DNA of 64,000 bases from Halomarina salina. Its GTDB lineage: Archaea; Halobacteriota; Halobacteria; Halobacteriales; Haloarculaceae. The position numbers were made by a program, and so were the translations under genes. Positions within the stretch are counted from its first letter, which is position 1. Each line of letters begins with the position of its first letter. Location of the stretch: contig NZ_JALLGW010000003.1 of the NCBI RefSeq assembly GCF_023074835.1, positions 1 through 64,000 on the forward strand. Direction: 5' to 3'. The notes beneath the pieces are model-generated. The model was given only the letters and a program-made list of their open reading frames with translations. It ran no database searches and was not told where the DNA came from. Shown piece after piece: positions 7,652 to 62,650 of the stretch.

Positions 7652-8848
7652 TTAGTAGAAGGTGTCTCCGGTCTTCGCCTTCTCGACCAGCAGGTCACAC
7701 GGGAGCGTCTCGGCCTGCTTGTTGGTGTCGTCGTGACGGCTCGCGACCTCGGTCAGTCGGTCGAGGACGACCGATGCACCGACCTCGTCTGCCTTCTCGA
7801 GTGGACCGACCGGCCAGTTGCCGCCGAGTTTCGCACCCGTGTCGATGTCCTCGACGCTCGCGACATCGTGTTGCACCATCTTGGCGGCCTCGTTGATGAT
7901 CGGCGCCCAGACGAGCAGGGTATCGAACCCCTGGCCAGCGTCGACCGCGATCTGTGGCTCGTCGCGTTCGTCGTAGTCGTAGTACCCGGCCCCCGACTTC
8001 CGACCGTACCGCCCCTTGTCGTACAACTGGTGCAGTATCGGACAGACCTCCGTGTCGTACGCCATGGGGCGGTCTTCGGTCAGGTGGTCCTGCTCGCCCT
8101 CGACGCGAATCTGGATGCCGCCCGTGAAGTCGGCGAGTTCGAACGGCCCCATCGGAAACCGTTCCTTGTACTTCATCGCCGAATCGATCTCCTCGATACT
8201 GTGCTCTCCCCTGTAGACCATCCACGCCGCTCCCTCACCGTAGGGCCGCATCAGGCGGTTGACGATGAACGAGGGGACGTCCATCCGACAGCGAATCGGT
8301 GTCTTGCCGAACGATTCGACGAGCGATTCGACGGTCCCCGCCACGTCGTCGGGCGTGTGTTCGGTCATGATCACCTCGACCAGATCCATCAGCATCGGCG
8401 GGTTGAACCAGTGGCTACCGACCACCTGTGCTGGCCGGTCCGTGACCTCTGCGAGGCGGGTGATGTTGAGCCCGGACGTGTTGGTCGCGAGAATCGCTTC
8501 GGAGGGGGTGGCTTCGTCGAGGTCCTCGAAGATGTCCTCTTTCACCGCTTGCTGCTCGACTGCGGCCTCGGTGACGAAGTCGGCGTCGCCGACCGCCTCG
8601 TCGAGGTCGGTCGTGAACTCCAGTCGGTCGAGGGCAGCGTCGGCGTCCTCTTGCGTCACTCGACCGTTCCCGACGGACTTGTCGTACGACCACTCGATTC
8701 GCTCGCTCGCCTCCTCGAGCTGTGATTCGTCGATGTCGTTCAGGTAGGTGTCGTAGCCGGCGAGCGCGGCGACGGCCGCGATGCCACGGCCCATCTGTCC
8801 ACTGCCGACGACGGCGACGGTCTCTATCTCGGTGCGGTCTACGACCAT
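7652..8848 (-). CDS. 3-hydroxyacyl-CoA dehydrogenase
   Basis: NAD-dependent oxidation of 3-hydroxyacyl-CoA to 3-ketoacyl-CoA, the third beta-oxidation step. The N-terminal Rossmann motif is VGSGQMGRG (Gly15-x-Gly17-x-x-Gly20), and the catalytic His lies in GSHWFNPPMLMDLVEVI. At 398 residues it is longer than the ~290-residue single-module enzymes, consistent with an extended or duplicated C-terminal helical domain. It is the only member of this family in the window and could serve the 3-hydroxyacyl-CoA produced by several modules. A TATA-like run near 8875 lies 27 bp before the ATG. Confidence 0.92.
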   Translation of the reverse strand: MVVDRTEIETVAVVGSGQMGRGIAAVAALAGYDTYLNDIDESQLEEASERIEWSYDKSVGNGRVTQEDADAALDRLEFTTDLDEAVGDADFVTEAAVEQQAVKEDIFEDLDEATPSEAILATNTSGLNITRLAEVTDRPAQVVGSHWFNPPMLMDLVEVIMTEHTPDDVAGTVESLVESFGKTPIRCRMDVPSFIVNRLMRPYGEGAAWMVYRGEHSIEEIDSAMKYKERFPMGPFELADFTGGIQIRVEGEQDHLTEDRPMAYDTEVCPILHQLYDKGRYGRKSGAGYYDYDERDEPQIAVDAGQGFDTLLVWAPIINEAAKMVQHDVASVEDIDTGAKLGGNWPVGPLEKADEVGASVVLDRLTEVASRHDDTNKQAETLPCDLLVEKAKTGDTFY

Positions 8849-13769: not shown

Positions 13770-13791
13770 GTGGCATGCTGACGCCCACCCA

Positions 13792-14045: not shown

Positions 14046-14071
14046 CCGGGGCAGGCCCCGCCCACCTCGCG

Positions 14072-15956: not shown

Positions 15957-17786
<1,830 letters not shown>

Positions 17787-17915
17787 CTCGGCCCAATCTG
17801 CCCCCGCAGCGCACCTTACTCTACCGGTCGACGCACGCACCAGCGAACCGGTGCCGAGTCGCGTCCGTCGGAACGTCGACTCCTGCTCGGGGCGTCTCCG
17901 GGGGTCTCGACACGC

Positions 17916-18170: not shown

Positions 18171-18180
18171 CCTCGATGCC

Positions 18181-19722: not shown

Positions 19723-19831
19723 CGTCACCGTGACCACTGACTCTGGCTCATCGATGACCGAGAGTCGCGCCTGCCGGAAAAGCGTTGTCGAACGACATCC
19801 CGTGCGTGGGTCGGTTCCGTCTCGACGCGCT

Positions 19832-20691: not shown

Positions 20692-21756
20692 CTAGAGCGG
20701 CTCCTCGCCGTCGATGATACGACGCGCTCGCTCGCCCAGCGCGGGGACGTACTCCTCCATCAGCGGGTAGTTCGGGTTGTCCGCGTTGCCCTCCAGGTGG
20801 CGGCGGTACATCATCTCGCAGGTGCTGGCGGTCTTGAAGACACCGAACGTTCGGTAGAACCGCTCGTTCGAGAACGCTCGTCCGGTCTGCTCCTCGTACC
20901 GGTCGAGGAGTTCGCGCCGAGTGAGGTAGCCGGGGGACGCCTCGACCCGGCTGTTCAGCGGATCGTCGAACTCGGGGTCCTCGGGGTCGAACCAGTGGGC
21001 GAGCGTCCAGCCGAGGTCCGTCAGCGGGTCGCCGCGCGTCGACATCTCCCAGTCGAACACACCGACGAGGTCCGGGGGCGTCCCCGGCCCGAACATGACG
21101 TTGTCGAGGGAGTAGTCGCCGTGGAGCAGCGTGTGGTCGTACTCCGTCGGGACGTTCGCGGCCAGCCAGTCGGCGACGGTGTGCAGTTCCGGCACGGAGC
21201 GGTCGTCGTCGGTCACCTCGACCGCCCACTCGAGTTGGTCCGTCCACCGCTCGACCTGTCGCTCGGTGTACCCCTCGGGGTGACCGAGGTCGTCCAGTCC
21301 GACGGTCTCCGGGTCTAGCGTGTGAATCTCGACGAGCGTATCGACGAACCGCTCCGAGAGCGCACGTCGCTGGTCGGGCGCGGCGAACCGGTCGGGTTCC
21401 ACGTCGCGGATGACGTCGCCCGCCAGGCGCTCCATCAGGTAGAACTCCGCCCCGAGCACGGCGCGGTCTTCGCAGGCGGCGACCGTCGACGGCACCGGTA
21501 CGGCTGTGTCTTCGAGCGCGGACATGACGCGATACTCCCGCAGCACGTCGTGTGCTGCGTCGGCAGTCTCCCCCGCGGGCGGTCGCCTGAGGACGAGTTC
21601 GCGGTCCCCCCAGCCGACGAACAGCGTCTCGTTCGAGTGACCAGCCTGGTGGTACTCGACGGTCAGCGGTCCGCCTGGCCCGACCGCCCTCTCGAGGAAT
21701 CGCGCCAGTCGCTCCTCGTCGTAGAGTCGGTCGAGGTACTCCCGACGGTCGGTCAT
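20692..21756 (-). CDS. APH-type phosphotransferase (ACAD10/11 N-domain-like kinase)
   Basis: Protein-kinase-like phosphotransferase of 354 residues. It has the catalytic loop HGDYSLDNVMF (His212, Asp214, Asn219) and the metal-binding FDWEMSTRGDP (Asp235). Homologues are fused to an acyl-CoA dehydrogenase in ACAD10/11, or stand alone beside ACAD genes, and phosphorylate 4-hydroxyacyl-CoAs, as LvaA does in Pseudomonas. The ATG overlaps the stop of a 19-codon upstream ORF in ATGA. It is very similar to the kinase at 50128 (both share GHSNETLFV and AHDVLREY). Followed on the genome by enoyl-CoA hydratase and two ACAD genes, all on the same strand. Antibiotic phosphorylation is unlikely in this context. 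Confidence 0.88.
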   Translation of the reverse strand: MTDRREYLDRLYDEERLARFLERAVGPGGPLTVEYHQAGHSNETLFVGWGDRELVLRRPPAGETADAAHDVLREYRVMSALEDTAVPVPSTVAACEDRAVLGAEFYLMERLAGDVIRDVEPDRFAAPDQRRALSERFVDTLVEIHTLDPETVGLDDLGHPEGYTERQVERWTDQLEWAVEVTDDDRSVPELHTVADWLAANVPTEYDHTLLHGDYSLDNVMFGPGTPPDLVGVFDWEMSTRGDPLTDLGWTLAHWFDPEDPEFDDPLNSRVEASPGYLTRRELLDRYEEQTGRAFSNERFYRTFGVFKTASTCEMMYRRHLEGNADNPNYPLMEEYVPALGERARRIIDGEEPL

Positions 21757-39347: not shown

Positions 39348-39353
39348 ATCTCG

Positions 39354-39366
39354 TGAACGTTGTTCA
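39354..39366. promoter_or_regulatory. Short palindrome before hyuA
   Basis: TGAAC-GTT-GTTCA, perfect 5-bp arms, lies between the minus-strand TATA-like CGATTAAGTG (39375-39384) and the hyuA start. Possible operator; short enough to be chance. Confidence 0.3.
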
Positions 39367-39455
39367 GCGAAGTGCACTTAATCGTTGCCCGATGGTAACA
39401 GGAACGTGACGGTTCCTACGGTCGCCGCCGACCGGCGTGGCCGGCGCGTCGGCCC

Positions 39456-41232: not shown

Positions 41233-42492
41233 TCAGATGTAGTCGAAGAGGTGGCCGGCGACTCTGCGTTTCTGGATTTCCTCTGCGCCCTCGGTGATGC
41301 GGTAGCGGCGGTGGTGGCGGTAGATGTGCTCGAACGGTTTGTGGCGACTGTAGCCGACGCCGCCGTGGACCTGCATCGCCTGGTCGGCGGCTCGGCAGAC
41401 GAGGTTGTTGGCGGTGTAGTTGCACATCGCGACCAGTTCGCTCACCGACGACCCCGACTCGGTGATCATCTGCCCCTCGTCGTCGAGGGCCGCGGCGGTC
41501 TTCCGGACGGTGTTGCGGAGCATCTCGGCTTCCGTGTGCAGTTCCGCCAGCGGGAACTGGATGGCCTGCCGGGAGGCCAGCGGTTCGCCCCACGTCTCGC
41601 GCTCCTTGGCGTAGTCGACCGCCTCGTCGATGCAGAACTGCGCCGCGCCGAGGCTCGCGGCCGCCTGCCGGATGCGGCTCTCGTGGACGAACCGCTGGGC
41701 GACGTGCAGCCCCTTGCCCTCCTCGCCGACGATGGCGCTGTCGGGCACGCGGACGCCGTCGAGAGAGACTTCGGCGTGGTCGGTCGGCATGTTGAACGTC
41801 CACCAGAAGTACTCGACCTCGAACCCGTCGGCGTCCGTCGGGACGAGGAAGGCGGTGATGCCCTCGCCGTCGCCGTCCTCGCCGCTCGTCCGGGCGAACA
41901 CGAGGTCGTAGTCGGCGACGTGCATCCCGCTGTTCCAGCGTTTGGCGCCGTCGATGACCCACTCGTCGCCCGCGGGACCGCCGACCCGTTCGGCACTGGT
42001 GTCCATCCACGTCGCGTCCGACCCGTGTTCCGGCTCGGTCAGACCGAAGGCGACGAACACCTCGCCGCTGGTGACGTCCTCGATGAGCTCCTGTTGCTCG
42101 TCGGTCCCGAACCGTTCGAGAATCTGGGGGAACTGGTGGTTGCCGACGATGGAGGCCTCGCTCTGGAGCACGTTGTGCAGGCCGACTCCCTTGTGAGCGA
42201 GGTGTTCTCTGACGATGGCCATCCCGAGGTTCGTCCCTCCCTGCCCGCCCATCCGCTCGGGGAGCGCGTACCGGTAGAAGCCCGCCTCGTCGGCCCGCCG
42301 TCGCATCTCCGAGAGCAGGTCTTCCCACTCCTCTGCGGGTTGACCGTCCCGCTCCCAGTCCGTCCGCGCGTGTTCCCGTCGCTCGTCGAAGAACTCCTCG
42401 TGTTCCGCTTCGAGCGGTTCGATCTCCTCTTCGATGAACTGGTCCAGGTCGTCGAGCAGTTCCTGTATCTCCTCCGGGATGCCGAACTCCAT
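41233..42492 (-). CDS. Acyl-CoA dehydrogenase
   Basis: A 419-residue ACAD with FGLTEPEHGSDATWMDT, GLHVAQRFVHESRIRQAAASLG and C-terminal YRITEGAEEIQKRRVAGHLF (Glu kept). It starts at MEFGIPEEIQ (42492) because a TATA-like CCTATTTGTC is centred 27 bp upstream; the alternative ATG at 42507 would place the TATA only 12 bp away. Related to the ACAD at 46187, sharing an acidic EREIEPLE-type N-terminal helix and a GGPAGDEWVIDG block. Confidence 0.92.
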   Translation of the reverse strand: MEFGIPEEIQELLDDLDQFIEEEIEPLEAEHEEFFDERREHARTDWERDGQPAEEWEDLLSEMRRRADEAGFYRYALPERMGGQGGTNLGMAIVREHLAHKGVGLHNVLQSEASIVGNHQFPQILERFGTDEQQELIEDVTSGEVFVAFGLTEPEHGSDATWMDTSAERVGGPAGDEWVIDGAKRWNSGMHVADYDLVFARTSGEDGDGEGITAFLVPTDADGFEVEYFWWTFNMPTDHAEVSLDGVRVPDSAIVGEEGKGLHVAQRFVHESRIRQAAASLGAAQFCIDEAVDYAKERETWGEPLASRQAIQFPLAELHTEAEMLRNTVRKTAAALDDEGQMITESGSSVSELVAMCNYTANNLVCRAADQAMQVHGGVGYSRHKPFEHIYRHHRRYRITEGAEEIQKRRVAGHLFDYI

Positions 42493-43533: not shown

Positions 43534-44553
43534 ATGAGCGAGCTCAAGATAGACGTCGGCGTCCAGGGACTGTCCGACGAGACCGCCGACCTCGCGAGGA
43601 AGGCGGAGGAGTTCGGCTTCGACGGGGTGTTCGCGTCGGAACTCGACACGGACCCGTTCCTCCCGCTGTCGCTGGTCGCCGAACACACCTCGACCGTCGA
43701 ACTGGGAACCCGCATCGCCACGTCGTTCACGCGTTCACCGATGGTGCTGGCGTACATGGCGTGGAACCTGCAGCGATACTCGAACGGCCGGATGGTCCTC
43801 GGCCTCGGGACGCAGGTGAAAGGGCACAACGAGCGGCGGTTCTCCGTCGACTTCGAGTGGGAGCGACCGGGGCCACGGCTCCGCGAGGAGGTCCTGGCGC
43901 TTCGCCACATCTTCGACGTGTTCCAGGGTGAAGCCGACGACCTGGACTTCGACGGCGAGTTCTACGAGTTCTCGCTGATGACCGAGGAGTTCAATCCTGG
44001 CCCCATCGAGGAGGGGCCACCGGCCATCTGGACGGCCGGCGTCAACGAGTACATGCTCACGATGGCCGGCGAGGTCGCCGACGGCCTCTGCATGCACGCG
44101 TTCAACACGCCGAAGTACACCGACGAAGTCATCGCCCCGCTCGTCGAGAAGGGCGCGAACATCGGCGACCGCGACCCCGAGGCGGTCGACCTCTCGGCCA
44201 GTCCGTTCCTCGTCACCGGCGAGACCGAGGAGCAACGTCGGGAGATGCTCCAGGAAGCGAAACGGCGCATCGCGTTCTACGGGTCGACGCGGACGTACCA
44301 CGACGTCCTCGAACTCCACGGCTGGAAGGACGTCGGCATGGAACTCCACGAGCTGTCGAAGGACGACCAGTGGGGCGAGATGACCGAACTGGTCACCGAC
44401 GAGATGGTCGACGCGTTCGCCATCCGCGCACCGCCCGAGGACCTCGGTGAAGAGATCGTCGAGACGTACGGGGGCGTCGCCGACCGCGTCCAGCTACAGT
44501 TCGACGGCAGCGACTACTGGGCGGACGTACTCGAAGACCTTCGCGCGGCGTGA
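43534..44553 (+). CDS. LLM-class F420-dependent oxidoreductase
   Basis: A 339-residue luciferase-like TIM barrel. N-terminal KAEEFGFDGVFASEL, the STVELGTRIATSFTRSP strand, SNGRMVLGLGTQVKGHNERRFS and the AGEVADGLCMHAF block fit a subfamily of F420-dependent LLM proteins. The promoter is at leaderless spacing. It lies between a PaaG-like isomerase and the synthetase-ACAD-SDR-kinase module. Reaction unknown; reduction or mono-oxygenation of an acyl-CoA or ring substrate is possible. Confidence 0.87.
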   Translation: MSELKIDVGVQGLSDETADLARKAEEFGFDGVFASELDTDPFLPLSLVAEHTSTVELGTRIATSFTRSPMVLAYMAWNLQRYSNGRMVLGLGTQVKGHNERRFSVDFEWERPGPRLREEVLALRHIFDVFQGEADDLDFDGEFYEFSLMTEEFNPGPIEEGPPAIWTAGVNEYMLTMAGEVADGLCMHAFNTPKYTDEVIAPLVEKGANIGDRDPEAVDLSASPFLVTGETEEQRREMLQEAKRRIAFYGSTRTYHDVLELHGWKDVGMELHELSKDDQWGEMTELVTDEMVDAFAIRAPPEDLGEEIVETYGGVADRVQLQFDGSDYWADVLEDLRAA

Positions 44554-44586: not shown

Positions 44587-46092
44587 TCACGCCAGTTCGC
44601 TCTTGAGCACCTTGCCGGTCGGGTTGCGCGGCAGTTCGTCGTAGAACTCGACTCGTCGCGGCTTCTTGAAGTCCGCCAGCCGAGCCGCCACGTGTGCGAC
44701 GACGTCCGACTGGGAGAGTGAGGACCCCTCGGCCGCGACGACACACGCTTTCACGGCCTCGCCCCACTCCTGGTCTGGGACGCCGATGACGGCGACTTCC
44801 GCGATGTCGGGGTGGTCGTGGAGCACCTCCTCTATCTCGGCCGGGTGGACGTTCTCGCCGCCGGTGATGATCATGTCGTCGGCGCGGCCGACGAAGTGGA
44901 AGAAGCCGTCCTCGTCGCGGTGGACGAGGTCGTCGGAGACGAACCAGCCGTCGTCGAACACCTCGGCGGTCTTCTCGGGCATCCCGTGGTACCGGTCGAA
45001 GACGGTCGGCCCGCGGTAGGCGATGCGGCCCACTTCGCCCGGTGGCAGTTCCTCGCCGCCCTCGTCGACGACCTTCGCGCCCAGGTTCAACATCGACTCG
45101 CCGACGCTGTCGGCCTTCTCGATGGCGTCATCCGGGAGGAGGTGGAGACAGAGCGCCTCCGTCTGACCGAACGTCTCGATGACGTCGCAGTCGAAGCGGT
45201 CCATCGTCTCTCGCTTGAGCGCCGCCCCGACCGGCGCGGCTCCCGTGCTGTACGTGTCGAGGCTGGAGACGTCGAACGCGTCGAACGCGTCGAGGTCCAG
45301 CAGCATCCGGGTCTGCGTCGGGACGAGGTACGTCGAGTTCACCCGCTCCGCCTCGATCAGCGAGAGCGTCCGTTCTGCGTCGAACCCGTCGACGACGACG
45401 GTCGCGCCCCCTGCGTAGAAGTTGTTCAGGAAGGGGACGAACGCGCCGACGTGGAACAGCGGCGTCGAGACGAGGTGACGGTTGCCCGGTTCGAGGAACG
45501 CCCACGCCTCGGCGGCGTCCTGCGCCAGCTGGACGAGGTTGTCGTGGGTGTAGACACAGCCCTTCGGGTCACCGGTCGTCCCCGAGGTGTACATGATGCC
45601 GGCCTCGTCCAGTCGACCGACGTCGGCGTCGAGGGTCGTCGGGTCGTCGGCGAGGAGCGCCTCGTAGGAGTCGGCGAACGACGGCGGGTCGTCGACGGAG
45701 ACGACGTGGTCGACGGCGTCGCGGACGTCCGCGAGCGTCTCCGCGCCGAAGTCGTCGACGAGACAGAGGCTCGCGTCGCTGTCCTCGAGGACGTAGCGGA
45801 CCTCCTCGCCCTTGAACCGGTGGTTGACGGGGACGACCAGCGCGCCGAGCTTCATCGCCCCGACGAACGCTTCGAGCGTCTCGGCGTTGTTCTTCGTGTA
45901 CAGCGCGACGCTGTCGCCCTTCTCGACGCCCCGCTCGGCGAGTCCCGCCGCGAGTCGGTCGGTCCGGTCGTCGAACGCTTCGAACGTGTGAGTGACGAGT
46001 CGCTCGCCGTTCGCCCGGTGTACGACCGCCTCGCGGTCCGGCCACTTGCGGGCGTTGCGCTCGGCGAGGTACCCGATGGTCATCCCGTGCAT
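44587..46092 (-). CDS. AMP-forming acyl-CoA synthetase
   Basis: A 501-residue enzyme with YTSGTTGDPKGCVYTHDN, ETFGQTEALCLHL, FVGRADDMIITGGENVHPAEIE and the catalytic Lys in NPTGKVLKSELA. Start at MHGMTIG (46092): a TATA-like element is centred 27 bp upstream and the paralogue at 27456 starts the same way (MRGLTFG). Divergent from an ACAD gene across a 94-bp shared promoter region. In the proposed 4-hydroxyacid module it would make the CoA ester, as LvaE does. Confidence 0.93.
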   Translation of the reverse strand: MHGMTIGYLAERNARKWPDREAVVHRANGERLVTHTFEAFDDRTDRLAAGLAERGVEKGDSVALYTKNNAETLEAFVGAMKLGALVVPVNHRFKGEEVRYVLEDSDASLCLVDDFGAETLADVRDAVDHVVSVDDPPSFADSYEALLADDPTTLDADVGRLDEAGIMYTSGTTGDPKGCVYTHDNLVQLAQDAAEAWAFLEPGNRHLVSTPLFHVGAFVPFLNNFYAGGATVVVDGFDAERTLSLIEAERVNSTYLVPTQTRMLLDLDAFDAFDVSSLDTYSTGAAPVGAALKRETMDRFDCDVIETFGQTEALCLHLLPDDAIEKADSVGESMLNLGAKVVDEGGEELPPGEVGRIAYRGPTVFDRYHGMPEKTAEVFDDGWFVSDDLVHRDEDGFFHFVGRADDMIITGGENVHPAEIEEVLHDHPDIAEVAVIGVPDQEWGEAVKACVVAAEGSSLSQSDVVAHVAARLADFKKPRRVEFYDELPRNPTGKVLKSELA

Positions 46093-46114
46093 GCCCGTGC
46101 AGACCGGACTGTGG

Positions 46115-46164
46115 TATGTAAATCCTTCCCAGCCACCGACCCACCGCGCACCGGGATTTATTGC
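46115..46164. promoter_or_regulatory. Divergent promoter pair, synthetase and ACAD
   Basis: Minus-strand GGATTTACATA (46115-46125) lies 27 bp before the synthetase ATG at 46092, and plus-strand GATTTATTGC (46155-46164) lies 27 bp before the ACAD ATG at 46187. The two TATA elements share GATTTA and are only 30 bp apart, so they may be controlled together. Confidence 0.55.
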
Positions 46165-46186
46165 GGTGGTGATGCCATCCCGTACC

Positions 46187-47401
46187 ATGGACTTCGAGGA
46201 GCCAGCAGCCGCGACCGACCTGAAGGACGAACTCTCGGCGTTCATCGAGCGCGAGATCGAACCGCTCGAGGAGGACCACGAGCGATTCCTCGGCCCCGAC
46301 GCGGAGCGACACATCTTCGACGAGAACTTCGAGCAGGTCCCCGAGTACCTCGACCTGAAGGAGACGATTCGCAAACGCGCTGCGGAGGCGGACTTCTGGG
46401 GGATGAGCATGCCGGAGTCGGTCGGTGGCCGGGGCGTCGACACGCTCACCAGCGCCATCGTCTCGGAGTTCCTGGAGAACCGTCCGCCAGGGTTCCACAC
46501 GTACGCCGTGCAGGGCGCGGGTGGCGGGCCGACACCCATCCTGCTCGCCTGCGACGAGGCGCAGCGCGAGGAGTACCTCGACCCGCTGATGGCCGGCGAG
46601 AAGACCACCTGCTTCGCACTCACCGAACCGGACCACGGGAGCGACCCGAACTTCCTGGAGACGACCGCCGAACGGGTCAGCGGACCCGCAGGCGACGAGT
46701 GGGTCATCGACGGCGAGAAGTCGTGGATCAGCAACGGCCCGTACGCCGACTTCGCGATGGTGTTCGCTCGGACGAGTGGCGACGCGGGCGAGGTCGGTGG
46801 CATCTCCTGTTTCCTCGTCGACGCCGACACGCCCGGCTTCGAGGTGGGCGACGTCCACCGGCCGATGGGACACGCGTGGGTCGCCCCCTCGAAGCTCCGG
46901 TTCGACGACTGTCGCGTCGGCGACGACCAGCTCCTCGGCGACGAAGGGGCGGGGTTCTACCAGGCGATGAACTGGATCGGGAACGCGCGGCTGAACGTCG
47001 CCGCCGGCTGCGTCGGCTCGGCCGAGTTCCTCGTCGAGAAGGCGCTCGACTACGCCGAGGACCGCGAGACGTTCGGGAAACCGCTCGTCGAACGACAGGG
47101 CATCTCGTTCCCGCTCGCCGAGGTGGCGACCGACGTCGAGCGGACGCGACAGCTCTATCGCTACGCCGCCTGGAAGGTCGACGACGACCGCGACGCGCGC
47201 AAGGAGATCGCCATGGCGAAGCTCTCGGCGGCCACCCTGGAGAACCGGGCCGCCGACGTCGCCATGCAGGTCCACGGTGGGTCGGGGTACTCCAGGCGCG
47301 AACCCATCGAGGAACGCTACCGGACCTCTCGTGGGAAGCGACTCACCGAGGGTACCGACGAGATGCAGAAACAGACCATCGTGGGAGAACTGCGCGACTG
47401 A
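46187..47401 (+). CDS. Acyl-CoA dehydrogenase
   Basis: A 404-residue ACAD with FALTEPDHGSDPNFLETT, KSWISNGPYADFAMVFAR, ETFGKPLVERQGIS and C-terminal KRLTEGTDEMQKQTIVGEL (Glu kept). Start at MDFEEPAAA (46187) is fixed by the promoter 27 bp upstream; an ATG at 46172 is too close to it. In the proposed module it takes the place of LvaC, which acts on a phosphorylated 4-hydroxyacyl-CoA; simple dehydrogenation is the conventional alternative. Confidence 0.92.
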   Translation: MDFEEPAAATDLKDELSAFIEREIEPLEEDHERFLGPDAERHIFDENFEQVPEYLDLKETIRKRAAEADFWGMSMPESVGGRGVDTLTSAIVSEFLENRPPGFHTYAVQGAGGGPTPILLACDEAQREEYLDPLMAGEKTTCFALTEPDHGSDPNFLETTAERVSGPAGDEWVIDGEKSWISNGPYADFAMVFARTSGDAGEVGGISCFLVDADTPGFEVGDVHRPMGHAWVAPSKLRFDDCRVGDDQLLGDEGAGFYQAMNWIGNARLNVAAGCVGSAEFLVEKALDYAEDRETFGKPLVERQGISFPLAEVATDVERTRQLYRYAAWKVDDDRDARKEIAMAKLSAATLENRAADVAMQVHGGSGYSRREPIEERYRTSRGKRLTEGTDEMQKQTIVGELRD

Positions 47402-47506
47402 CCGGTCGGTCGTCGGCGACGCTCCGCACCCTCTGATTCTCTGCACACGGCGAGAAGAACGACGAGCCGACCGGCCCGAGAGGGGTCCCGCGCCTATCGA
47501 CGCGCG

Positions 47507-48283
47507 CTAGCCGCGGATGTAGCCGCCGTTGACGCTGAGCACCTCGCCGGTGACCCAGTCGGCGGCGTCGCTACAGAGGAACGCCACGGCGTCGGCGTGG
47601 TCTTCGGGTTCGCCGATACGGTCGAGCGCGTACGACTCGAGGATCTTCTCCTCGTACTCCTCGATCCACTCGGCGGTCGCCGGCGTCTTCGTCGTGCCCG
47701 GCGACAGGCAGTTCACGCGGACGCCGTCGCCCCCGACCTCGTGGGCGACGGTCCGGGTGAACGAGACGTTCCCCGCCTTCGCCGCCCCGTAGACGGACAG
47801 TCCTGGGTCGTTCCCCTTGAACGAGTCGCTGGCGAAGTTGACGATAGCGCCGCCTTCGTCCTGCTCGGTCATGTGGGGGAGGACGGCGTGCGTGCAGTTC
47901 ATCGTCCCGTAGAGACAGACGCCGACGATCTTCTCCCAGCCCTCCGGTTCGGTGTCGACGAACGGTTTGCTCTCCCCGATGCCGGCGTTGTTGACGAGGC
48001 TGTCGATTCGACCGAACGCGTCGTCGACGGTCTCGACCATCTCGGTGACGGCGTCGTACGACGAGACGTCGGTCTCGACCGCGATGGCCTCGACGTCGTG
48101 GTCGTCCTCCAGTTCGGCGGCCGCCTCCTCGGCTGGCCCCTCCTCGATGTCGGCGATGGCGACGTTCGAACCGAGTGCGGCGAACGTGTCGCTGATCTGC
48201 CGTCCGATGCCCGACGCTCCGCCGGTGACGATAGCCGTCTGGCCGGAGAAGTCTATCTCTCCAATCGCGTTGCTTACGCGCAT
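47507..48283 (-). CDS. Short-chain dehydrogenase/reductase
   Basis: A 258-residue SDR with TGGASGIGRQ, NNAGIGES, a Ser in FASDSFKG and the catalytic YGAAK. C-terminal VTGEVLSVNGGYIRG is typical of classical SDRs. Promoter CACTTATCAG is centred 27 bp before the ATG. Divergent from the small gene at 48418. In the proposed module it could interconvert a 4-oxo- and a 4-hydroxyacyl-CoA (LvaD-like role); this is inference. Confidence 0.92.
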   Translation of the reverse strand: MRVSNAIGEIDFSGQTAIVTGGASGIGRQISDTFAALGSNVAIADIEEGPAEEAAAELEDDHDVEAIAVETDVSSYDAVTEMVETVDDAFGRIDSLVNNAGIGESKPFVDTEPEGWEKIVGVCLYGTMNCTHAVLPHMTEQDEGGAIVNFASDSFKGNDPGLSVYGAAKAGNVSFTRTVAHEVGGDGVRVNCLSPGTTKTPATAEWIEEYEEKILESYALDRIGEPEDHADAVAFLCSDAADWVTGEVLSVNGGYIRG

Positions 48284-48306
48284 CGCAGAACCCTTCAGAA
48301 CCGGTC

Positions 48307-48395
48307 CTGATAAGTGTTATCACGTCGCCGAACACGCGGGGCCCGCCCGTGGCAGAGCGCACCCAAACCGTCGGCAGCGCCGACAGTTTCTTATC
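48307..48395. promoter_or_regulatory. Divergent promoters of SDR and kinase-partner genes
   Basis: Minus-strand CACTTATCAG (48307-48316) serves the SDR ATG at 48283, and plus-strand TTTCTTATCG (48387-48395) is centred 27 bp before the ATG at 48418. The second fixes the start of the small gene. Confidence 0.5.
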
Positions 48396-48417
48396 GACAC
48401 ACCGAGTGGCGTGTGCT

Positions 48418-48897
48418 ATGCCATACCTTCGTCCGGAACTCGTTCTCGACCGGTTCTCGTCGTTCGCTCGCGACGACGTCCGGCCGGCCATCACCGGTGA
48501 GGGCGACGAGTTCCTCGAAGCACAGGTCGGGTCGATGTCCAGCACCCTCTCGTTCCTCTCGAAGGAACTGGGGGGGATGGGTGAGAGCGTCGAAACACAG
48601 CACGAGGCGCTACTCGCGGCGCTGGACGACGCGGATGACGTCCTGGACGACGCGGCCGTCGAGGGAGCGGACCTCTCGGTGAGCGTCGAGGAGACGCGTC
48701 GACGCGTATCGAACGCTCCCCGCGACGACGTCTACGAACACGAGCGAGTGCTCGTCGAGGCGAGCGCCGACCTCCTCGAAGCCGTCGACGAGGGACTCGA
48801 CCGCGAGACGGCGCGGGCCGTCCGCACCCCGCTGTACGGGTTCCTCGAGACGCGCGTCGAGTCGCAACTGCGGATGCTCGGGCGAGAGGCGGAATGA
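48418..48897 (+). CDS. Small acidic protein coupled to kinase (LvaB-like partner candidate)
   Basis: A 159-residue, mostly helical, acidic protein with no motif I can assign firmly. Its N-terminus (MPYLRPELVLDRFSSFARDD, then VRPAI and, after a short gap, FLSKELGG) resembles the layout of small proteins found next to kinase genes in bacteria, where LvaB is required by the 4-hydroxyacyl-CoA kinase LvaA. The ATG at 48418 lies 27 bp after a TATA-like element; the GTG at 48349 would be upstream of that promoter. Its TGA overlaps the kinase ATG (ATGA), so the two are translated together and may form one complex. Confidence 0.75.
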   Translation: MPYLRPELVLDRFSSFARDDVRPAITGEGDEFLEAQVGSMSSTLSFLSKELGGMGESVETQHEALLAALDDADDVLDDAAVEGADLSVSVEETRRRVSNAPRDDVYEHERVLVEASADLLEAVDEGLDRETARAVRTPLYGFLETRVESQLRMLGREAE

Positions 48898-49970
48898 CGG
48901 CCGACCTCGACACCGTCGCGGAGGACCTCTCGACGTACCTCTCTGGCCGACTGGCCGACGGCCCCGTCGACGTGACGGACGTCCTGAGCCACACGGAGGG
49001 CTGGTCGCGCCGGACCATCTCGTTCACGGGCCACTGGGCCGACGACGGCGCGGAGACGTCCCAGCGCTTCGTCGTCCGCATCAGCACCGACTACGACGAC
49101 GTCGACGACGCGACGGACACCCGGAACGACATCGAGACGGAGTTCAGAACGATGAAGGCCGGCTACGAGGCGGGCGTCCCGGCACCGGAACCCTACCTCT
49201 ACGAGTCGGACCCCGCCGTCCTCGGCGGGCCCTTCTTCGTCGTCGAACACCTCGACGGCGACGCGCTCATCACCTGGGACCCGCGCAACCGACAGCGGCT
49301 CTACGACGCGTGGGACGACCCGGAGAACACGCTTCCGAGCCAGTTCGTCGACGCCGTCGCCGCCATCCACACCGTCTCCCCCCAGGACGTCCCGTTCCTG
49401 GAGCAGACGGACCCCGAGGCCGTCGTCGACCGGGAACTCGACACGTACGAGCGCATCTACGAGGAGACGAGGCTGAAACGGGAGCCGGCGATTCAGGAGG
49501 CGCTGCGGTGGTTCCGGGCCAACAAACCCGAGGTCACCGAGACGACGCTCGTCCACGGGGACTTCCGCATCGGGAACGTCCTCGTCACCGACGATGAACT
49601 CACGGGCGTCCTCGACTGGGAACTCGCACAGGTCGGCGACCCGCTGTACGACCTCGGCTACGCGAGCACGCGGTACTTCGCCGGAAAGCTCCTCGACCCC
49701 ATCGAACGGCCGGAACTGGCGAGCGCCCTGGTCGAGCGCGAGTGGTTGTACGACGAGTACGAGCGACGGACGGGCCGGACGGTCGACCGGGACCGGGTCC
49801 GGTACTGGCAGGCGTTCTCGACGTTCACGATGCTGACCAGAGGTGTGGCCGGCGCGCACCGGTACCACACCGGGGAGAGCGACGACGTCAGGAGCGCCTG
49901 GTTCCAGTACATCGTCCCCGGCCAGATAGAGGACCTGCTGACGACCATCACCGACGACCGGACGCGCTGA
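48894..49970 (+). CDS. APH-type phosphotransferase (LvaA-like kinase candidate)
   Basis: A 358-residue kinase-fold phosphotransferase with catalytic loop VHGDFRIGNVLV and metal motif LDWELAQVGDPLYDLGY. It differs from the other two kinases of the window, which form a closer pair, in the nucleotide-binding N-lobe (GWSRRTISFTG). The start overlaps the stop of the upstream 159-residue gene. Relatives phosphorylate 4-hydroxyacyl-CoA so that an ACAD-like enzyme can eliminate phosphate. The ACAD, SDR and synthetase genes needed lie within 4.5 kb. Confidence 0.87.
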   Translation: MTADLDTVAEDLSTYLSGRLADGPVDVTDVLSHTEGWSRRTISFTGHWADDGAETSQRFVVRISTDYDDVDDATDTRNDIETEFRTMKAGYEAGVPAPEPYLYESDPAVLGGPFFVVEHLDGDALITWDPRNRQRLYDAWDDPENTLPSQFVDAVAAIHTVSPQDVPFLEQTDPEAVVDRELDTYERIYEETRLKREPAIQEALRWFRANKPEVTETTLVHGDFRIGNVLVTDDELTGVLDWELAQVGDPLYDLGYASTRYFAGKLLDPIERPELASALVEREWLYDEYERRTGRTVDRDRVRYWQAFSTFTMLTRGVAGAHRYHTGESDDVRSAWFQYIVPGQIEDLLTTITDDRTR

Positions 49971-50101: not shown

Positions 50102-50131
50102 ATGGAACGACTGGAGGGTGAGGACTCGTGA
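50102..50131 (+). CDS. 9-codon leaderless upstream ORF coupled to kinase gene
   Basis: ATG-initiated MERLEGEDS starts where a leaderless transcript is predicted and ends in a TGA that overlaps the kinase GTG start (GTGA). The arrangement repeats that found before the paralogous kinase at 21756, although the peptides do not resemble each other. Confidence 0.45.
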   Translation: MERLEGEDS

Positions 50132-51195
50132 GTGAGAGCGACGACTCGTACTTCGAGCGCCTCGTCGACGTAGACGCGCTCGAATCGTACCTCGAAAGCC
50201 ACCTCGGAGCGACGGACACGTTCGAGGTCGACCGGCACGCCGGGGGGCACTCCAACGAGACGCTGTTCGTCACGTGGGGGGACCGCGACCTGGTCGTCCG
50301 ACGGCCACCGCCGGGCGAGACTGCCGACACGGCCCACGACGTCCTCCGGGAGTACACGGTAATGGAGGCACTCCAGGGAACCGACGTCCCGGTTCCGGAG
50401 ACGGTCCTCGCCTGCGACGACCACGACGTCATCGGGAGCGACTTCTACGTGATGGTGCGCGAACGCGGCGTCGTGATTCGCGACGAGGAACCGGACCAGT
50501 TCGCGGCCCCCGACCACCGTCGCCGACTCGGTGAGCAGATGGTCGACACGCTAGCGTCCATCCACCGGGTCGACTACGAGGCGGTCGGTCTGGAGGAGTT
50601 CGGCCGACCGGACGGGTTCACCCAGCGCCAGGTCGACCGCTGGCAACGCCAGTACGAGTGGGCGTTCGAGGTCACGACGGACGAACGCGACGTGCCGGCG
50701 GTCCACGAACTGACCGACTGGCTTCAGGCGAACGTCCCCGAGGACCCGCCACACGCGCTCGTTCACGGCGACTACAAGCTGGACAACGTCATGTTCGAGA
50801 CGTCGCCGCCGCCGACGGTCCGCTCGGTGTTCGACTGGGAGATGTCGACGCTCGGCGACCCGTTCGCCGACCTCGGGTGGCTGCTCTCGTACTGGCCCGA
50901 CGACGGCGACCAGTCGGCCGCCGTCGGTACCGCCGGCGGGGCGGAGTTCCTGCTCCGGGACGGCTACCCGACCCGCGACGAACTGGTCGACCGGTACGAG
51001 TCCGCCACCGGTCTCGAGTTCGCGAACGACCGCTTCTACCGAGCACTGGCGGTGTACAAGCTCGGGGCGCTCGGGGAGATGTTCTTCCGCCGGCACCTCG
51101 AGGGCAACGCGGACGACGACACGTACCCGCAGATGGAAGAGCGCGTGCCGACGCTCGCAGCGCGCGCGAAGCGCATCGTCGAGGGCGAGGAGTGA
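50128..51195 (+). CDS. APH-type phosphotransferase (ACAD10/11 N-domain-like kinase)
   Basis: A 355-residue kinase, close paralogue of the one at 20692: both share GHSNETLFV, RRPP.GETAD.AHDVLREY and DNVMF. Catalytic loop VHGDYKLDNVMF and metal motif FDWEMSTLGDPFADLGW. It starts with GTG at 50128 in a 4-base overlap with a 9-codon ORF. An HSDL2-like SDR follows on the same strand after about 100 bp. A 4-hydroxyacyl-CoA or related acyl-CoA is the probable substrate class. Confidence 0.87.
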   Translation: MSESDDSYFERLVDVDALESYLESHLGATDTFEVDRHAGGHSNETLFVTWGDRDLVVRRPPPGETADTAHDVLREYTVMEALQGTDVPVPETVLACDDHDVIGSDFYVMVRERGVVIRDEEPDQFAAPDHRRRLGEQMVDTLASIHRVDYEAVGLEEFGRPDGFTQRQVDRWQRQYEWAFEVTTDERDVPAVHELTDWLQANVPEDPPHALVHGDYKLDNVMFETSPPPTVRSVFDWEMSTLGDPFADLGWLLSYWPDDGDQSAAVGTAGGAEFLLRDGYPTRDELVDRYESATGLEFANDRFYRALAVYKLGALGEMFFRRHLEGNADDDTYPQMEERVPTLAARAKRIVEGEE

Positions 51196-51297: not shown

Positions 51298-52149
51298 ATG
51301 GCGCTCGAAACGCCCGACCTGAGCGGACGGACCGCCTTCATCACGGGTACGACACGGGGTATCGGCAAGGAGATCGCACTCTCGCTGGCGGACGCCGGCT
51401 GCAACGTCGTCTCGACGGGCAAGACCGTCGACGACAGCGACTCAGACCTGGAGGGGACCATCCACAAGACCGCCGACGCCTGCGAGGAACGAGGTGTCGA
51501 GGCGCTTCCAATCCAGTTGAACCTCCGCGACGTCGACCAGGTGGAGGCCGCCGCGCAGCAGGCCATCGACGAGTTCGGCGAGGTCGACATCGTCATCAAC
51601 AACGCCAGTGCCATCCAGATCGCGTCCGTCGAGGAGATGCCGGCCGACCGGTTCGACCTCGTCGCCGACGTCAACGTCCGGGGCACGTACGCCACCTCGC
51701 GAGCGTTCGTCCCGCATCTCGAGGAGATCGGCGGTGGCCACATCCTGACGAACGCGCCCCCCATCCAGGTCGACCGTGCGCCGGGCCAGGCCGCGTACGC
51801 CTGGTCGAAGATGGGGATGACGTTCGTCACGCTGTCGCTGGCCGACGAACTCCGCGAGCACGGCGTCGCAGCGAACACGTTCTGGCCGGTGACGACCATC
51901 GACACGCGGGCGTCGCGGTACTTCGGGCTCGGCACCGAAGACGACTGGCGGACGCCCGACATCCTCGCGGATACGGTGCTGGAACTCCTGTCCCGTGACC
52001 CGAGCGAGTTCAGCGGCAACTCGGTGTACGACGAGGAGATACTGCGCGAGGTCGGCGTCGAGGACTTCTCGGAGTACAACTGCACGCCCGGCGACCCCGA
52101 CCCGGACTCCGCCGCGCTGTTCGACCCCGAGTTCCAGCGTCCCGAGTGA
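51298..52149 (+). CDS. HSDL2-like short-chain dehydrogenase with altered catalytic Ser
   Basis: A 283-residue SDR of the hydroxysteroid dehydrogenase-like 2 group, with TGTTRGIGKEIALSLADAG, NNASAIQ and a C-terminal extension (residues 230-283) that is longer than in classical SDRs. The catalytic Tyr167 and Lys171 are present (YAWSK), but the usual Ser of the NLSPP-type segment is replaced: it reads TNAPPIQ, with Ala153. Activity as a classical dehydrogenase is therefore uncertain. It lies downstream of a kinase gene and convergent with an F420 oxidoreductase gene. Confidence 0.87.
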   Translation: MALETPDLSGRTAFITGTTRGIGKEIALSLADAGCNVVSTGKTVDDSDSDLEGTIHKTADACEERGVEALPIQLNLRDVDQVEAAAQQAIDEFGEVDIVINNASAIQIASVEEMPADRFDLVADVNVRGTYATSRAFVPHLEEIGGGHILTNAPPIQVDRAPGQAAYAWSKMGMTFVTLSLADELREHGVAANTFWPVTTIDTRASRYFGLGTEDDWRTPDILADTVLELLSRDPSEFSGNSVYDEEILREVGVEDFSEYNCTPGDPDPDSAALFDPEFQRPE

Positions 52150-54301: not shown

Positions 54302-54994
54302 CTACACCGCGATGTGCTCGCGCAGCGTCGGGTCGTCGGCCTCGAGCCCGTCGGCGGCGCTCTCGTGGACGATTCGGCCGTTGGCGAGGACGTAGACCCG
54401 GTCGGCGACGGACAGCGCCAGGTTCACGTTCTGTTCGACGAGCAGGATGGTGAGGTCGTCCTTGAGGTCGACGAGCGCGTCTCGAACGTCGGCGACGATC
54501 TGTGGCGCTAACCCCTCGCTCGGTTCGTCGAGCAGGAGCAAGTCGGTCCCGCCGAGCATCCCCCGTGCGATGACGAGCATCTGCTGTTCGCCGCCGGAGA
54601 GGTCGCCGGCCTTGGCTTCGCGGAGTTCCGAGAGCTTCGGGAACAGTTCGTACGCGTCGTCGACGGTCCACTCGCCGCCGCGGCCGGCCGGCACCTCCAG
54701 GTTCTCCGCGACGGTGAGCGGTTCCCACACCTGCCTGTCTTCGGGCACGTAGCCGATACCACGGCGGATGATCTCGAAGGTCGACAGGCCGGTGATGTCC
54801 TCGTCGTCGTACCGAATCTGGCCCGACCTGGGCGGGACGATGCCGGCGACGCTGCGTAACGTGGTCGTCTTCCCCGCCCCGTTCCGGCCGAGCAGCGCGA
54901 CGACCTCGCCGTCGTTCACGTCGAGCGAGACGTCGTGGAGGACCTGGCTCTGTCCGTAGTACGCGTCGATGGCGTCGATATCGAGTCTCGCCAT
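54302..54994 (-). CDS. livF: ABC transporter ATP-binding protein, LivF type
   Basis: A 230-residue ATPase powering uptake of branched-chain amino acids or similar carboxylates. Walker A GRNGAGKTTTL, signature LSGGEQQMLVIARG and Walker B LLLLDEPSEGLA are intact. Start ATG overlaps the stop of livG, so the two are translationally coupled. Divergent permease genes and a binding-protein gene complete the transporter. Confidence 0.93.
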   Translation of the reverse strand: MARLDIDAIDAYYGQSQVLHDVSLDVNDGEVVALLGRNGAGKTTTLRSVAGIVPPRSGQIRYDDEDITGLSTFEIIRRGIGYVPEDRQVWEPLTVAENLEVPAGRGGEWTVDDAYELFPKLSELREAKAGDLSGGEQQMLVIARGMLGGTDLLLLDEPSEGLAPQIVADVRDALVDLKDDLTILLVEQNVNLALSVADRVYVLANGRIVHESAADGLEADDPTLREHIAV

Positions 54995-55737
54995 CAGGCC
55001 ACCCCTCCCAGGTACGCCTCCTGTACCGACTCGTCTGCCTGTACCTCCGACGGCGGCCCCGAGGCGATGATCGACCCGTTCTGCAGCACCAGCACCGTAT
55101 CGGAGATGTTCATCACGATGTCCATGTTGTGTTCGACGAAGAGGATGGTGTACTCGCCGGCGAGGTCGTCGATGAGGTCCAGCATCTCCTCGATCTCTAC
55201 CTGGCTCATCCCGGCCGCCGGTTCGTCGAGCAACAGCAACTCGGGGCCGATGGCGAGCGCGAGCGCGATTTCGAGCGACCGCTTGTCGCCGTGTGACAGC
55301 GAGCTAGCGAGGCGGTCGCGCTCGGACGCGAGACCGACCGTCGAGAGCATCTCCAGCGCCTCCTCGGTGTAGTCGTCGCGACTGTCGACGTGCTGGTAGA
55401 AGTTCCACCCACCCCGATGCCGGGCCTGGACCGCGACGCAGACGTTCTCGAGGACGCTGAGCCCCTCGAAGACGTTCGTTATCTGGAAGGACCGAGCCAC
55501 GCCCTTCCGCGCGATCGCCTCCGGCGTGAGCCCGGTGATCTCCTCGTCCCGGAACCGGACCACTCCGGAGGAGGGTTCGAGCGCCCCCGCCAGCATGTTG
55601 AACAGCGTGGTCTTCCCCGCGCCGTTCGGCCCGATCAGCGAGGTGATCTCTCCCCGCGGAACGGAGATGTCGACGTCGTCGACCGCCGTCACGCCGCCGA
55701 AGTGCTTGGTCAGACCGCTGGTCTCCAGTACCCCCAT
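54994..55737 (-). CDS. livG: ABC transporter ATP-binding protein, LivG type
   Basis: A 247-residue ATPase with Walker A GPNGAGKTTLF, signature LSHGDKRSLEIALAL and Walker B LLLLDEPAAGMS. The segment RHRGGWNFYQ is in the LivG-specific insertion. Unlike most genes here it has a clear Shine-Dalgarno sequence (GGGAGGAAGG, 55741-55750) a few bases before the ATG, so it is probably made from a transcript with a leader. First gene of livG-livF, divergent from livH. Confidence 0.93.
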   Translation of the reverse strand: MGVLETSGLTKHFGGVTAVDDVDISVPRGEITSLIGPNGAGKTTLFNMLAGALEPSSGVVRFRDEEITGLTPEAIARKGVARSFQITNVFEGLSVLENVCVAVQARHRGGWNFYQHVDSRDDYTEEALEMLSTVGLASERDRLASSLSHGDKRSLEIALALAIGPELLLLDEPAAGMSQVEIEEMLDLIDDLAGEYTILFVEHNMDIVMNISDTVLVLQNGSIIASGPPSEVQADESVQEAYLGGVA

Positions 55738-55740
55738 CTA

Positions 55741-55750
55741 CCTTCCTCCC
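55741..55750 (-). promoter_or_regulatory. Strong Shine-Dalgarno sequence of livG
   Basis: Minus-strand GGGAGGAAGG ends 4 bp before the ATG at 55737. It stands out in a window where most genes look leaderless. Confidence 0.6.
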
Positions 55751-55800
55751 GAATCGGTTGGCACTATCATGAGAACCTATCGCTTGGTGTGTGTTCCCCA

Positions 55801-55814
55801 CCCATAAGTTTAAC
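55801..55814. promoter_or_regulatory. Shared TATA region between livG and livH
   Basis: CCCATAAGTTTAAC is AT-rich and nearly symmetrical in its centre. Read on plus it lies about 36 bp before the livH ATG (leader about 9 nt). Read on minus (GTTAAACTTATGGG) it would give a livG leader of about 45 nt, consistent with the Shine-Dalgarno there. Confidence 0.5.
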
Positions 55815-55846
55815 CGTGCCCCCTTCGCTGCTCTTGCAGAGGGTGT

Positions 55847-57759: not shown

Positions 57760-57890
57760 GAGCGCTTCCCCGTCGACTTCGCCCTCGGTACCGCTGTATC
57801 ACGCAGTAGTCGTCCGCGAGCGCCCCGAGTCGAGCCACACGGCCCCCCCGGAGCCTCGGCCGCCGCCGAGAGACGGGAGAAGCCGGGGCA

Positions 57891-57900
57891 ACGCTTAACC
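57891..57900 (+). promoter_or_regulatory. Promoter of Liv binding-protein gene
   Basis: ACGCTTAACC lies about 31 bp before the ATG at 57928. A separate promoter would allow the receptor to be made in excess over the permease. Confidence 0.45.
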
Positions 57901-57927
57901 GGACGCTCGTCTACGCTATGATAGCTC

Positions 57928-59339: not shown

Positions 59340-60128
59340 ATGGCGACCGAGAGCTACGAGAACTTCGAGACGACGCTCGACGACGGCGTCCTCCGCGCGG
59401 AGATACACGGCACGTCGAAGATGAACGCGCTCAACGACACGATGACCGAGGAGTTGCTGGACCTCGCGGTCCGCCTCCACGAGGAGCCGATTCGGTGTTT
59501 CGTGCTCACCGGCTCCGACGGCGTGTTCTGTGCGGGCGGCGACGTGGAGACGTTCGGCAGCGACGACGCGCCCAGCGAGATGCGCAAGGGGGCGTCGCTG
59601 CTCCACGACGCCATCGTCCAGTTCCACCAGGCGGAGGTGCCGGTCGTCGTGGGGGTCAACGGCGCGGCTGTCGGTGCGGGGTTCAGTCTCGGCATCTTCG
59701 GCGACTTCGTCCTCGCCAGCGAGGCGTCGTACTTCCAGTTCGGCTACCCCGGCATCGGCGCGACGGGCGACGGCGCCTCGACGTACTTCCTGCCGCGGGT
59801 CGTGGGCCTCCGACAGGCCAAACGTATCGCGCTGCTGAACGAGCGCATCGACCCAGAGGAGGCGGTGGACCTGGGACTGGCGACCGAAGCAGTCCCCGAC
59901 GAGGAGTTCGAGGACCGCCTCGGAGCGGTCGCAGCGCGAATCGCCGAGGGACCGACCGTCGCACTCGGCCGGACCCAGCGACTGCTGACCGAGAGTACGT
60001 CGCGAGGCATCGAGGCGCAACTCGCCGCGGAGACGGACGTCATCGCGGAGACGGCGAAGACCGACGACTTCCAGGAGGGTGTCAGCGCGTTCGCCGAGAA
60101 GCAGTCCCCCGAGTTCGAAGGACGATAG
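59340..60128 (+). CDS. Enoyl-CoA hydratase/isomerase, PaaG-like
   Basis: A 262-residue crotonase-family protein with oxyanion block VFCAGGDVETFG. The hydratase glutamates are not conserved: GAGFSLGIFGDF replaces the first site, and YPGIGATGDGASTYFLPRVVG carries an Asp at the second, as in PaaG-type isomerases. Ring or chain double-bond isomerisation is thus more likely than hydration. Related in this respect to the gene at 42569. Located directly after the Liv receptor gene. Confidence 0.87.
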   Translation: MATESYENFETTLDDGVLRAEIHGTSKMNALNDTMTEELLDLAVRLHEEPIRCFVLTGSDGVFCAGGDVETFGSDDAPSEMRKGASLLHDAIVQFHQAEVPVVVGVNGAAVGAGFSLGIFGDFVLASEASYFQFGYPGIGATGDGASTYFLPRVVGLRQAKRIALLNERIDPEEAVDLGLATEAVPDEEFEDRLGAVAARIAEGPTVALGRTQRLLTESTSRGIEAQLAAETDVIAETAKTDDFQEGVSAFAEKQSPEFEGR

Positions 60129-61411: not shown

Positions 61412-62650
61412 ATGGAGTACCACGACTCCGAGAAAGCGGTCGAAGTAGCGGCCCGCGTCGAGGCGTTCATGGAAGAGGAAGTGCTGCCCCGAGAGCGGGA
61501 AGCGCTACGGACCCAGGAGCGCATCAGCGAAGACGAGATCCACGAGTTCTGGGAGCTGGCGAAAGAGCGCGACCTGTTCGCGCCGCAGGTGCCCGAGGAG
61601 TACGGGGGGCAGGGCCTGAACTTCCAGGACATGCTCCCGTCGTTCGAGCAGGTCGGGCGGTCGCTGTTCGGCGCACTCTCCATCCGGGCGAACGCTCCGC
61701 AGGAGGGCAACATGCACACCATCGAGATGGCGGGCACCGACGAACAGAAAGAGGAGTACCTGCACCCGCTCGTGCAGGGAGACATCCGGTCGGCGTTCTC
61801 GATGACCGAACCGCTCGACGGCGGTGGCTCCGACCCGAAGATGCTCAAGACCACAGCACGGAAAGACGGCGACGAGTGGGTCATCAACGGCCACAAGTGG
61901 TGGACTTCAGATGGGTACAACGCCGACGTCCTGCTGGTGATGGCCCGGACGGACCTCGACGCCCACCCCTACGAGGGGACGTCCATCTTCCTCGTTCCGA
62001 CCGACCTCGACGGCGTCAACGTCGTCCGGAACGTGGGGCATCTCGGCGGTCACGGTATCGTCGACATCGAGCGAGGCCACGCCGAGATCAAGTACGAGGG
62101 CGTGCGGGTCCCGGAGGAGGCGCTCCTTGGAGAGGAGGGCGGCGGGTTCCGCCTGGCGCAACTGCGCCTCGGCGGCGGCCGACTGACCCACTGCATGCGC
62201 TACTCGGGGATGGCCGAACGGTCCCTCGAGATATCGAAGGCGTACCTCCAGGACCGCCACGCGTTCGACGGGACGCTCTCGGAGAAGCAGGCGCTGCGCC
62301 ACCGCATCGCGAACGCCGAGACCCAGCTCCACGCCGCACGGACGATGGTGCGCCACGCCGCGCGCGAACTCGACGACAGCGACGCCCGCATCGAGGTGGC
62401 GATGGCGAAGCTGTTCACCGCGAACGTCACGAACGACATCATGGACCTGGCCGTGCAGTGTCTCGGCGGGAACGGCATCGGGAAGGACCTCCCCGTCGCG
62501 TACTTCTACGAGTCCGTCCGACCCTTCCGCATCGTCGACGGGGCCGACGAAGTCCACCGGCGCAGCATCGCCCGGCACGCCTTCGACGACGTCTACGACG
62601 AGGACATGGAGAACGTGCTCACGTTCGACTCGGACCTCGACATGACCTGA
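61412..62650 (+). CDS. ACAD10/11-like acyl-CoA dehydrogenase
   Basis: A 412-residue ACAD whose C-terminal half follows the ACAD domain of ACAD10/11: LGGGRLTHCMRYSGMAERSLEI, LAVQCLGGNGIGKDLPVAYFYE and FRIVDGADEVHRRSIA, where Asp replaces the catalytic Glu of ordinary ACADs. The FAD block reads FSMTEPLDGGGSDPK. In ACAD10/11 this domain eliminates phosphate from 4-phosphoacyl-CoA made by the fused kinase; here the kinase domain is absent, but three separate kinase genes lie elsewhere in the window. Start at MEYHDSEKA (61412). Confidence 0.88.
   Translation: MEYHDSEKAVEVAARVEAFMEEEVLPREREALRTQERISEDEIHEFWELAKERDLFAPQVPEEYGGQGLNFQDMLPSFEQVGRSLFGALSIRANAPQEGNMHTIEMAGTDEQKEEYLHPLVQGDIRSAFSMTEPLDGGGSDPKMLKTTARKDGDEWVINGHKWWTSDGYNADVLLVMARTDLDAHPYEGTSIFLVPTDLDGVNVVRNVGHLGGHGIVDIERGHAEIKYEGVRVPEEALLGEEGGGFRLAQLRLGGGRLTHCMRYSGMAERSLEISKAYLQDRHAFDGTLSEKQALRHRIANAETQLHAARTMVRHAARELDDSDARIEVAMAKLFTANVTNDIMDLAVQCLGGNGIGKDLPVAYFYESVRPFRIVDGADEVHRRSIARHAFDDVYDEDMENVLTFDSDLDMT

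Follow-up and report, generated by a model that had tools for sequence, protein, structure and literature searches.

Does Halomarina salina carry, within positions 1 to 64,000 of contig NZ_JALLGW010000003.1 (the window), its own version of the route in which 4-hydroxy acids are phosphorylated and relieved of the phosphate on their way into beta-oxidation? Genes for this phosphorylation-elimination route have been identified only lately, in Pseudomonas and mammals. The open-access papers searched contained no archaeal example, in agreement with an earlier note on this DNA that knew of no haloarchaeal description, and archaea are unmentioned in PMC12440821 and PMC11342911. That note had read five genes at 44587-49970 as an archaeal counterpart of the levulinate (lva) pathway of Pseudomonas putida. 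Our analysis points to a larger region with partly different members, and we consider it fairly probable that the genes at 39-63 kb of the plasmid let 4-hydroxy (or 4-oxo) acids enter beta-oxidation, by a haloarchaeal route similar to the LvaA/LvaC and ACAD10/11 systems.

In the proposed route, an acyl-coenzyme A (CoA) synthetase, either that at 44587 or another, would form the CoA thioester, and the 4-hydroxyl would be phosphorylated by the kinase kin2 and probably also by a second kinase, kin1, acting with an obligate small helical subunit as LvaA does with LvaB. The flavoprotein at 61412 would then expel the phosphate, and the resulting 2-enoyl-CoA would pass to enoyl-CoA hydratase and on to 3-hydroxyacyl-CoA dehydrogenase. 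The substrates are those we infer for such a route; levulinate would be a guess, and nothing points to it in particular.

The predicted eliminating flavoprotein and the kinases

Structural and mutagenesis studies have linked phosphate handling in ACAD11 to R626, H634, and R637 (the HCMR motif) and to the catalytic Asp D753, residues that LvaC shares, and R631 is also among the mouse ACAD11 residues tied to 4-phosphoacyl-CoA handling (PMC12440821). An LvaC query against the Halomarina genome returned 31 acyl-CoA dehydrogenase (ACAD) matches, only two of which combine the motif with the Asp: one chromosomal (C1:2912931) and one in the window (61412-62650). The window protein, second-best LvaC match in the genome, reads RRHCMR and has the catalytic Asp, that is, equivalents of R626, R631, H634-C-M-R637, and Asp753 are all present. 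Its nearest solved structures in a PDB search were 4hr3 (E 9e-70) and ACAD11 (9e-62), with ordinary ACADs far behind and the next best reaching 5e-48. At the level of sequence, its membership in the LvaC/ACAD10/11-type flavoproteins and its catalytic residues are firm, and the enzyme is predicted to convert 4-phosphoacyl-CoA to 2-enoyl-CoA.

Three kinases lie in the window (kin1 at 48894, kin2 at 50128, and kin3 at 20692), and they divide into two types. kin1 is the genome's best match to an LvaA query (30%, E 2e-25; other kinases 8e-15 or worse), whereas for the ACAD11 kinase domain kin2 is the much closer match (1.7e-49, against 3.4e-18 for kin1). A tree of 34 kinase sequences, some of whose rows are long, places kin1, LvaA, and bacterial kinases with adjacent small open reading frames (ORFs) on one side (support 97/94), and ACAD11, 3dxp, 9o56, kin2, kin3, and Rv3168 on the other. 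Rv3168 (3ats) and related APH-like kinases share the APH superfamily with kin1, but kin1 falls outside their clade. The tree split and the opposite match orders indicate that kin1 is LvaA-like and that kin2 and kin3 are ACAD11-like, and by family placement kin1 is classed as a predicted LvaA-type 4-hydroxyacyl-CoA kinase. In an alignment, its HGDFRIGN and LDWE motifs are intact; kin2, whose family membership is firm, has HGDYKLDN and FDWE, with the catalytic Asp and Asn of HGDxxxxN and the DWE in place. A relative of kin3 adjoins an LvaC-like orthologue (74%) in another haloarchaeal locus (L181).

Together, kin2 and 61412 resemble the two halves of mammalian ACAD10 and ACAD11, which are kinase-ACAD fusions for 4-hydroxy acids: kin2 corresponds to the kinase domain and 61412, with its signature residues complete, to the ACAD domain. 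Unlike the mammalian fusions, the putative archaeal counterparts are separate plasmid genes. The residue signature gives exact gene pairs for testing in haloarchaea.

The 159-residue protein and the comparison with lva

An ATGA stop-start overlap of 4 bases at 48894-48897, kept in most named relatives, joins kin1 to the upstream 159-residue ORF. This ORF is a genuine gene: its homologues are 40-76% identical, keep the same MPYL/MPHL start, and always stand beside a kin1 orthologue. Clear homologues occur in 12 of 391 Halobacteria genomes, kin1 occurs in exactly those 12, and the two are always adjacent; kin1 and the 159-residue protein are an obligate pair. The AlphaFold2 model of the protein is a five-helix bundle (mean predicted local distance difference test score 87), and PDB and viral structure libraries offer no similar fold at E 0.001 or better. 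Pfam, NCBIfam, and PDB searches assign it to no family. We regard it as a candidate non-catalytic kinase subunit, LvaB-like in position. The pair offers a clean case in which to ask what makes a small partner necessary for LvaA-type kinases but not for ACAD11-type ones.

Membership of the 159-residue protein in DUF6285 (PF19802), the family of LvaB, was considered and gained no significant support. DUF6285 gave no match to it at E up to 10, and the DUF6285 Pfam model found nothing above its gathering cut-off (28.1 bits) in the 391 Halobacteria genomes. Profile comparison with LvaB relatives was no more than suggestive, reaching E 0.05-0.09 with 1 of 100 column shuffles scoring as well, and neither hmmscan nor a hidden Markov model search gave a significant result. 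Viral contigs searched for LvaB or kin1 yielded neither. On Rhodococcus plasmids (L039, L125, and L126), APH-type kinases are followed by hypothetical small ORFs of 126-177 residues, possibly further kinase-partner families; these showed no significant match to the 159-residue protein.

For comparison, we used the lva operon of the Pseudomonas plasmid p12939-PER (L038), a copy of P. putida lvaABCDE, in which a prpR-type regulator is followed by LvaA, LvaB, LvaC, LvaD, LvaE, a DUF485 gene, and a symporter, and LvaB is annotated as a 4-hydroxypentanoyl-CoA kinase subunit. LvaA and LvaB interact and are both required, and LvaE is dispensable in P. putida (PMC6692424). Like this operon, the archaeal cluster has an LvaA-side kinase, a small protein with a 4-base overlap, an ACAD with HCMR and Asp, and a synthetase and an SDR (short-chain dehydrogenase/reductase) nearby. 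Unlike it, the archaeal small gene lies 5' of its kinase (3' in lva), encodes 159 rather than 118 residues, and has no detectable DUF6285 match; the LvaC-type ACAD lies 11 kb from kin1, additional ACAD11-type kinases are present, and neither the SDR nor the synthetase is an orthologue of LvaD or LvaE. In bacterial lva-like operons (L119, L121, L122, and L123), a histidine phosphatase gene often lies right 3' of the DUF6285 gene.

The idea of an archaeal lva counterpart in the earlier note therefore stands in part: the window does hold an LvaA-like kinase, an obligate small partner, and an LvaC-type ACAD, and the coupling of small protein to kinase recurs in position and overlap, but the searches gave no significant homology to LvaB, and several parts had been misassigned. 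The ACAD proposed as LvaC (45992) has WRVAAG where the signature has RRHCMR and Glu where Asp is expected, and it is not beside kin1 in most genomes; these residues rule it out, and the true LvaC-type gene lies outside the interval, as does kin2, which the note had missed. Genome rank likewise rules out the SDR at 47507 as LvaD (23rd of 27 LvaD matches) and the synthetase at 44587 as LvaE (11th-best match, the best being chromosomal).

Conserved clustering and competing readings

Clustering of these genes is conserved. In Halomarina halobia (L161), every gene of the 39.4-54.2 kb block is retained, with the synthetase at 83% and the kin2-SDR order retained. Natronolimnohabitans innermongolicus, Salinadaptatus halalkaliphilus, and related genomes hold the LvaC-like gene (80-82% identical to 61412), kin2 (70-72%), the 41233-type ACAD, the 44587-type synthetase (58-61%), kin1, and the small gene in one 20-kb stretch; four related loci have LvaC-like, kin2, synthetase, kin1, and small genes within 20 kb. 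Kinase and LvaC-like ACAD lie close together in the same cluster in six loci (L049-L052, L165, and L166) and are adjacent in many further haloarchaea and on the Halomarina strain's own chromosome too. The remaining kin1 loci share the small gene and kin1, usually a 41233-type ACAD, and mostly the synthetase, orthologues of which (51-62% identical) lie near most kin1 loci. Using a DNA pattern for RL[TS]HCMR, we found at least two HCMR matches in 12 of 12 kin1 genomes versus 59 of 391 overall (hypergeometric 5e-11, ignoring kinship), and orthologues of 61412 (74-85%) were confirmed in two kin1 genomes that have no LvaC-like gene near kin1. In one genome, ACAD, small gene, and kin1 are present a second time, in a copy that looks decayed (L053; G193:C2:418641-420146).

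Several observations weigh against the proposed route. The usual ACAD neighbour of kin1 and the small protein is the 41233 family, which has ordinary residues with Glu and without HCMR, rather than the LvaC type, so kin1 might serve another reaction; a Variovorax kinase bearing DUF6285 also adjoins Glu-type ACADs; 61412 lies 10 kb from kin2 in the window; and LvaD and LvaE queries against the genome found no orthologue of either in the cluster. The first two points would be explained if kin1, the small protein, ACAD 41233, and the synthetase formed a pathway of their own, in which the hydroxyl of another acyl-CoA is phosphorylated and a conventional ACAD dehydrogenates, with kin2 and 61412 merely sharing the plasmid. 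Such a pathway would fit the presence of the 41233-type ACAD with kin1 in nearly all loci, even those lacking an LvaC-like gene within 10 kb, but it sits poorly with the HCMR matches in every kin1 genome, with the several loci that unite both modules, and with the grouping of kin1 with LvaA in the kinase tree, and we regard it as rather unlikely. The 4-hydroxy-acid entry route, with kin1 as a probable feeder of 61412, is the reading we prefer.

Two further readings appear far less probable. A complete lva pathway within the interval, degrading levulinate with 44587 as LvaE, 47507 as LvaD, 45992 as LvaC, and small protein plus kin1 as LvaB plus LvaA, can claim the parts list, the kinase-small coupling, and the best LvaA match, but the residues and neighbourhood of 45992, the low ranks of SDR and synthetase, and the lack of significant homology to LvaB make it very improbable. 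That kin1 instead acts on a small molecule not linked to CoA, such as a drug or alcohol, in an incidental acyl-CoA gene neighbourhood is suggested by the APH fold it has in common with antibiotic kinases; its nearest solved relatives, however, include ACAD11 and acyl-CoA-linked kinases, far ahead of antibiotic kinases, and its synthetase and ACAD neighbours are conserved, leaving this explanation highly unlikely.

Wider distribution and gene layout

The HCMR pattern was matched in 202 of the 391 Halobacteria genomes. Of 30 pattern loci examined, which were those returned by the search and not a random draw, 29 code for LvaC-like proteins; at 13 of these, an ACAD11-type kinase lies no more than 1.5 kb away. 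The order SDR, LvaC-like gene, kinase, and sometimes 3-hydroxyacyl-CoA dehydrogenase recurs in several haloarchaeal families, and on sequence grounds such clusters are better candidates for archaeal counterparts of the lva route than 44587-49970. Judged by the residue signature, about half of the sampled haloarchaeal species may have the key LvaC-like enzyme. A bolder, two-part proposition is that the 159-residue proteins are a new type of kinase subunit, obligate but non-catalytic, which serves an archaeal hydroxyacyl-CoA kinase and has no kinship, or only a very remote one, with LvaB, and that an ACAD10/11-type pathway for 4-hydroxy acids, so far undescribed, operates widely among haloarchaea, in which as many as four kinases supply two eliminating flavoproteins; this we hold tentatively, stopping a little short of calling it probable.

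Table 1. Coordinates of the genes discussed, with the matches or residues that identify them
Feature	Coordinates	Strand	Evidence
Acyl-CoA synthetase, adenosine monophosphate-forming	44587..46143	-	PF00501 6e-83
ACAD 45992, conventional type (earlier proposed as LvaC)	46172..47401, start uncertain	+	WRVAAG and Glu
SDR (earlier proposed as LvaD)	47507..48283	-	SDR family match
159-residue all-helical protein, candidate non-catalytic kinase subunit	48418..48897	+	no Pfam, NCBIfam, or PDB family
kin1, APH-fold kinase, LvaA side of family	48894..49970	+	PF01636 7e-34
kin2, ACAD10/11-type kinase	50128..51195	+	PDB 9o56 1.6e-68, 3dxp 4e-55, ACAD11 1.7e-49
SDR, PRK08278 subfamily, directly 3' of kin2	51298..52149	+	NF006133 1e-103
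Enoyl-CoA hydratase/isomerase, upstream of LvaC-like ACAD	59340..60128	+	PF00378 2e-46
LvaC/ACAD10/11-type flavoprotein (predicted)	61412..62650	+	37-38% to LvaC, E 2e-76
ACAD 41233, conventional type (Glu, no HCMR)	41233..42405, start approximate	-	ACAD tree, residue table
kin3, ACAD10/11-type kinase	20692..21756	-	APH 7.5e-51; tree placement
3-Hydroxyacyl-CoA dehydrogenase, downstream beta-oxidation	7652..8848	-	PF02737 8e-62, PF00725 5e-36

Profile and family scans of the window proteins located all five genes of the 5.4-kb interval (Table 1), bearing out the earlier description of its contents, including the familyless 159-residue protein and the overlapping APH-type kinase, and they confirmed that the window has a 3-hydroxyacyl-CoA dehydrogenase. 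Synthetase and SDR 47507 are on the minus strand and ACAD 45992, the 159-residue ORF, and kin1 on the plus strand; with two genes facing one way and three the other, the interval is a gene cluster, not a single operon.

Two F420-type LLM oxidoreductases lie in the cluster (43534-44553, plus strand, TIGR03617; 52195-53208, minus strand, TIGR04024), the former of which also accompanies the LvaC-like gene in other haloarchaea. Between the cluster parts are an IclR-family regulator at 53439 and, at 54302-59262, an ABC transporter resembling the branched-chain amino acid type, which together suggest that the substrate may be an imported carboxylic acid. Elsewhere, a hydantoinase B/oxoprolinase family gene stands beside one resembling caprolactamase alpha/acetophenone carboxylase subunits (35390-37048 and 37269-39377, both minus strand), and biotin carboxylase and mmdA-like carboxyltransferase genes at 15957-19737 (minus strand) are consistent with a propionyl-CoA carboxylase. 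The contig, 261,172 bases long, ends with a mismatch-free repeat of window positions 1-18080 (G000:C3:243093-261172); given this terminal redundancy of 18,080 bases, the replicon is probably circular, with a length of 243,092 bases.

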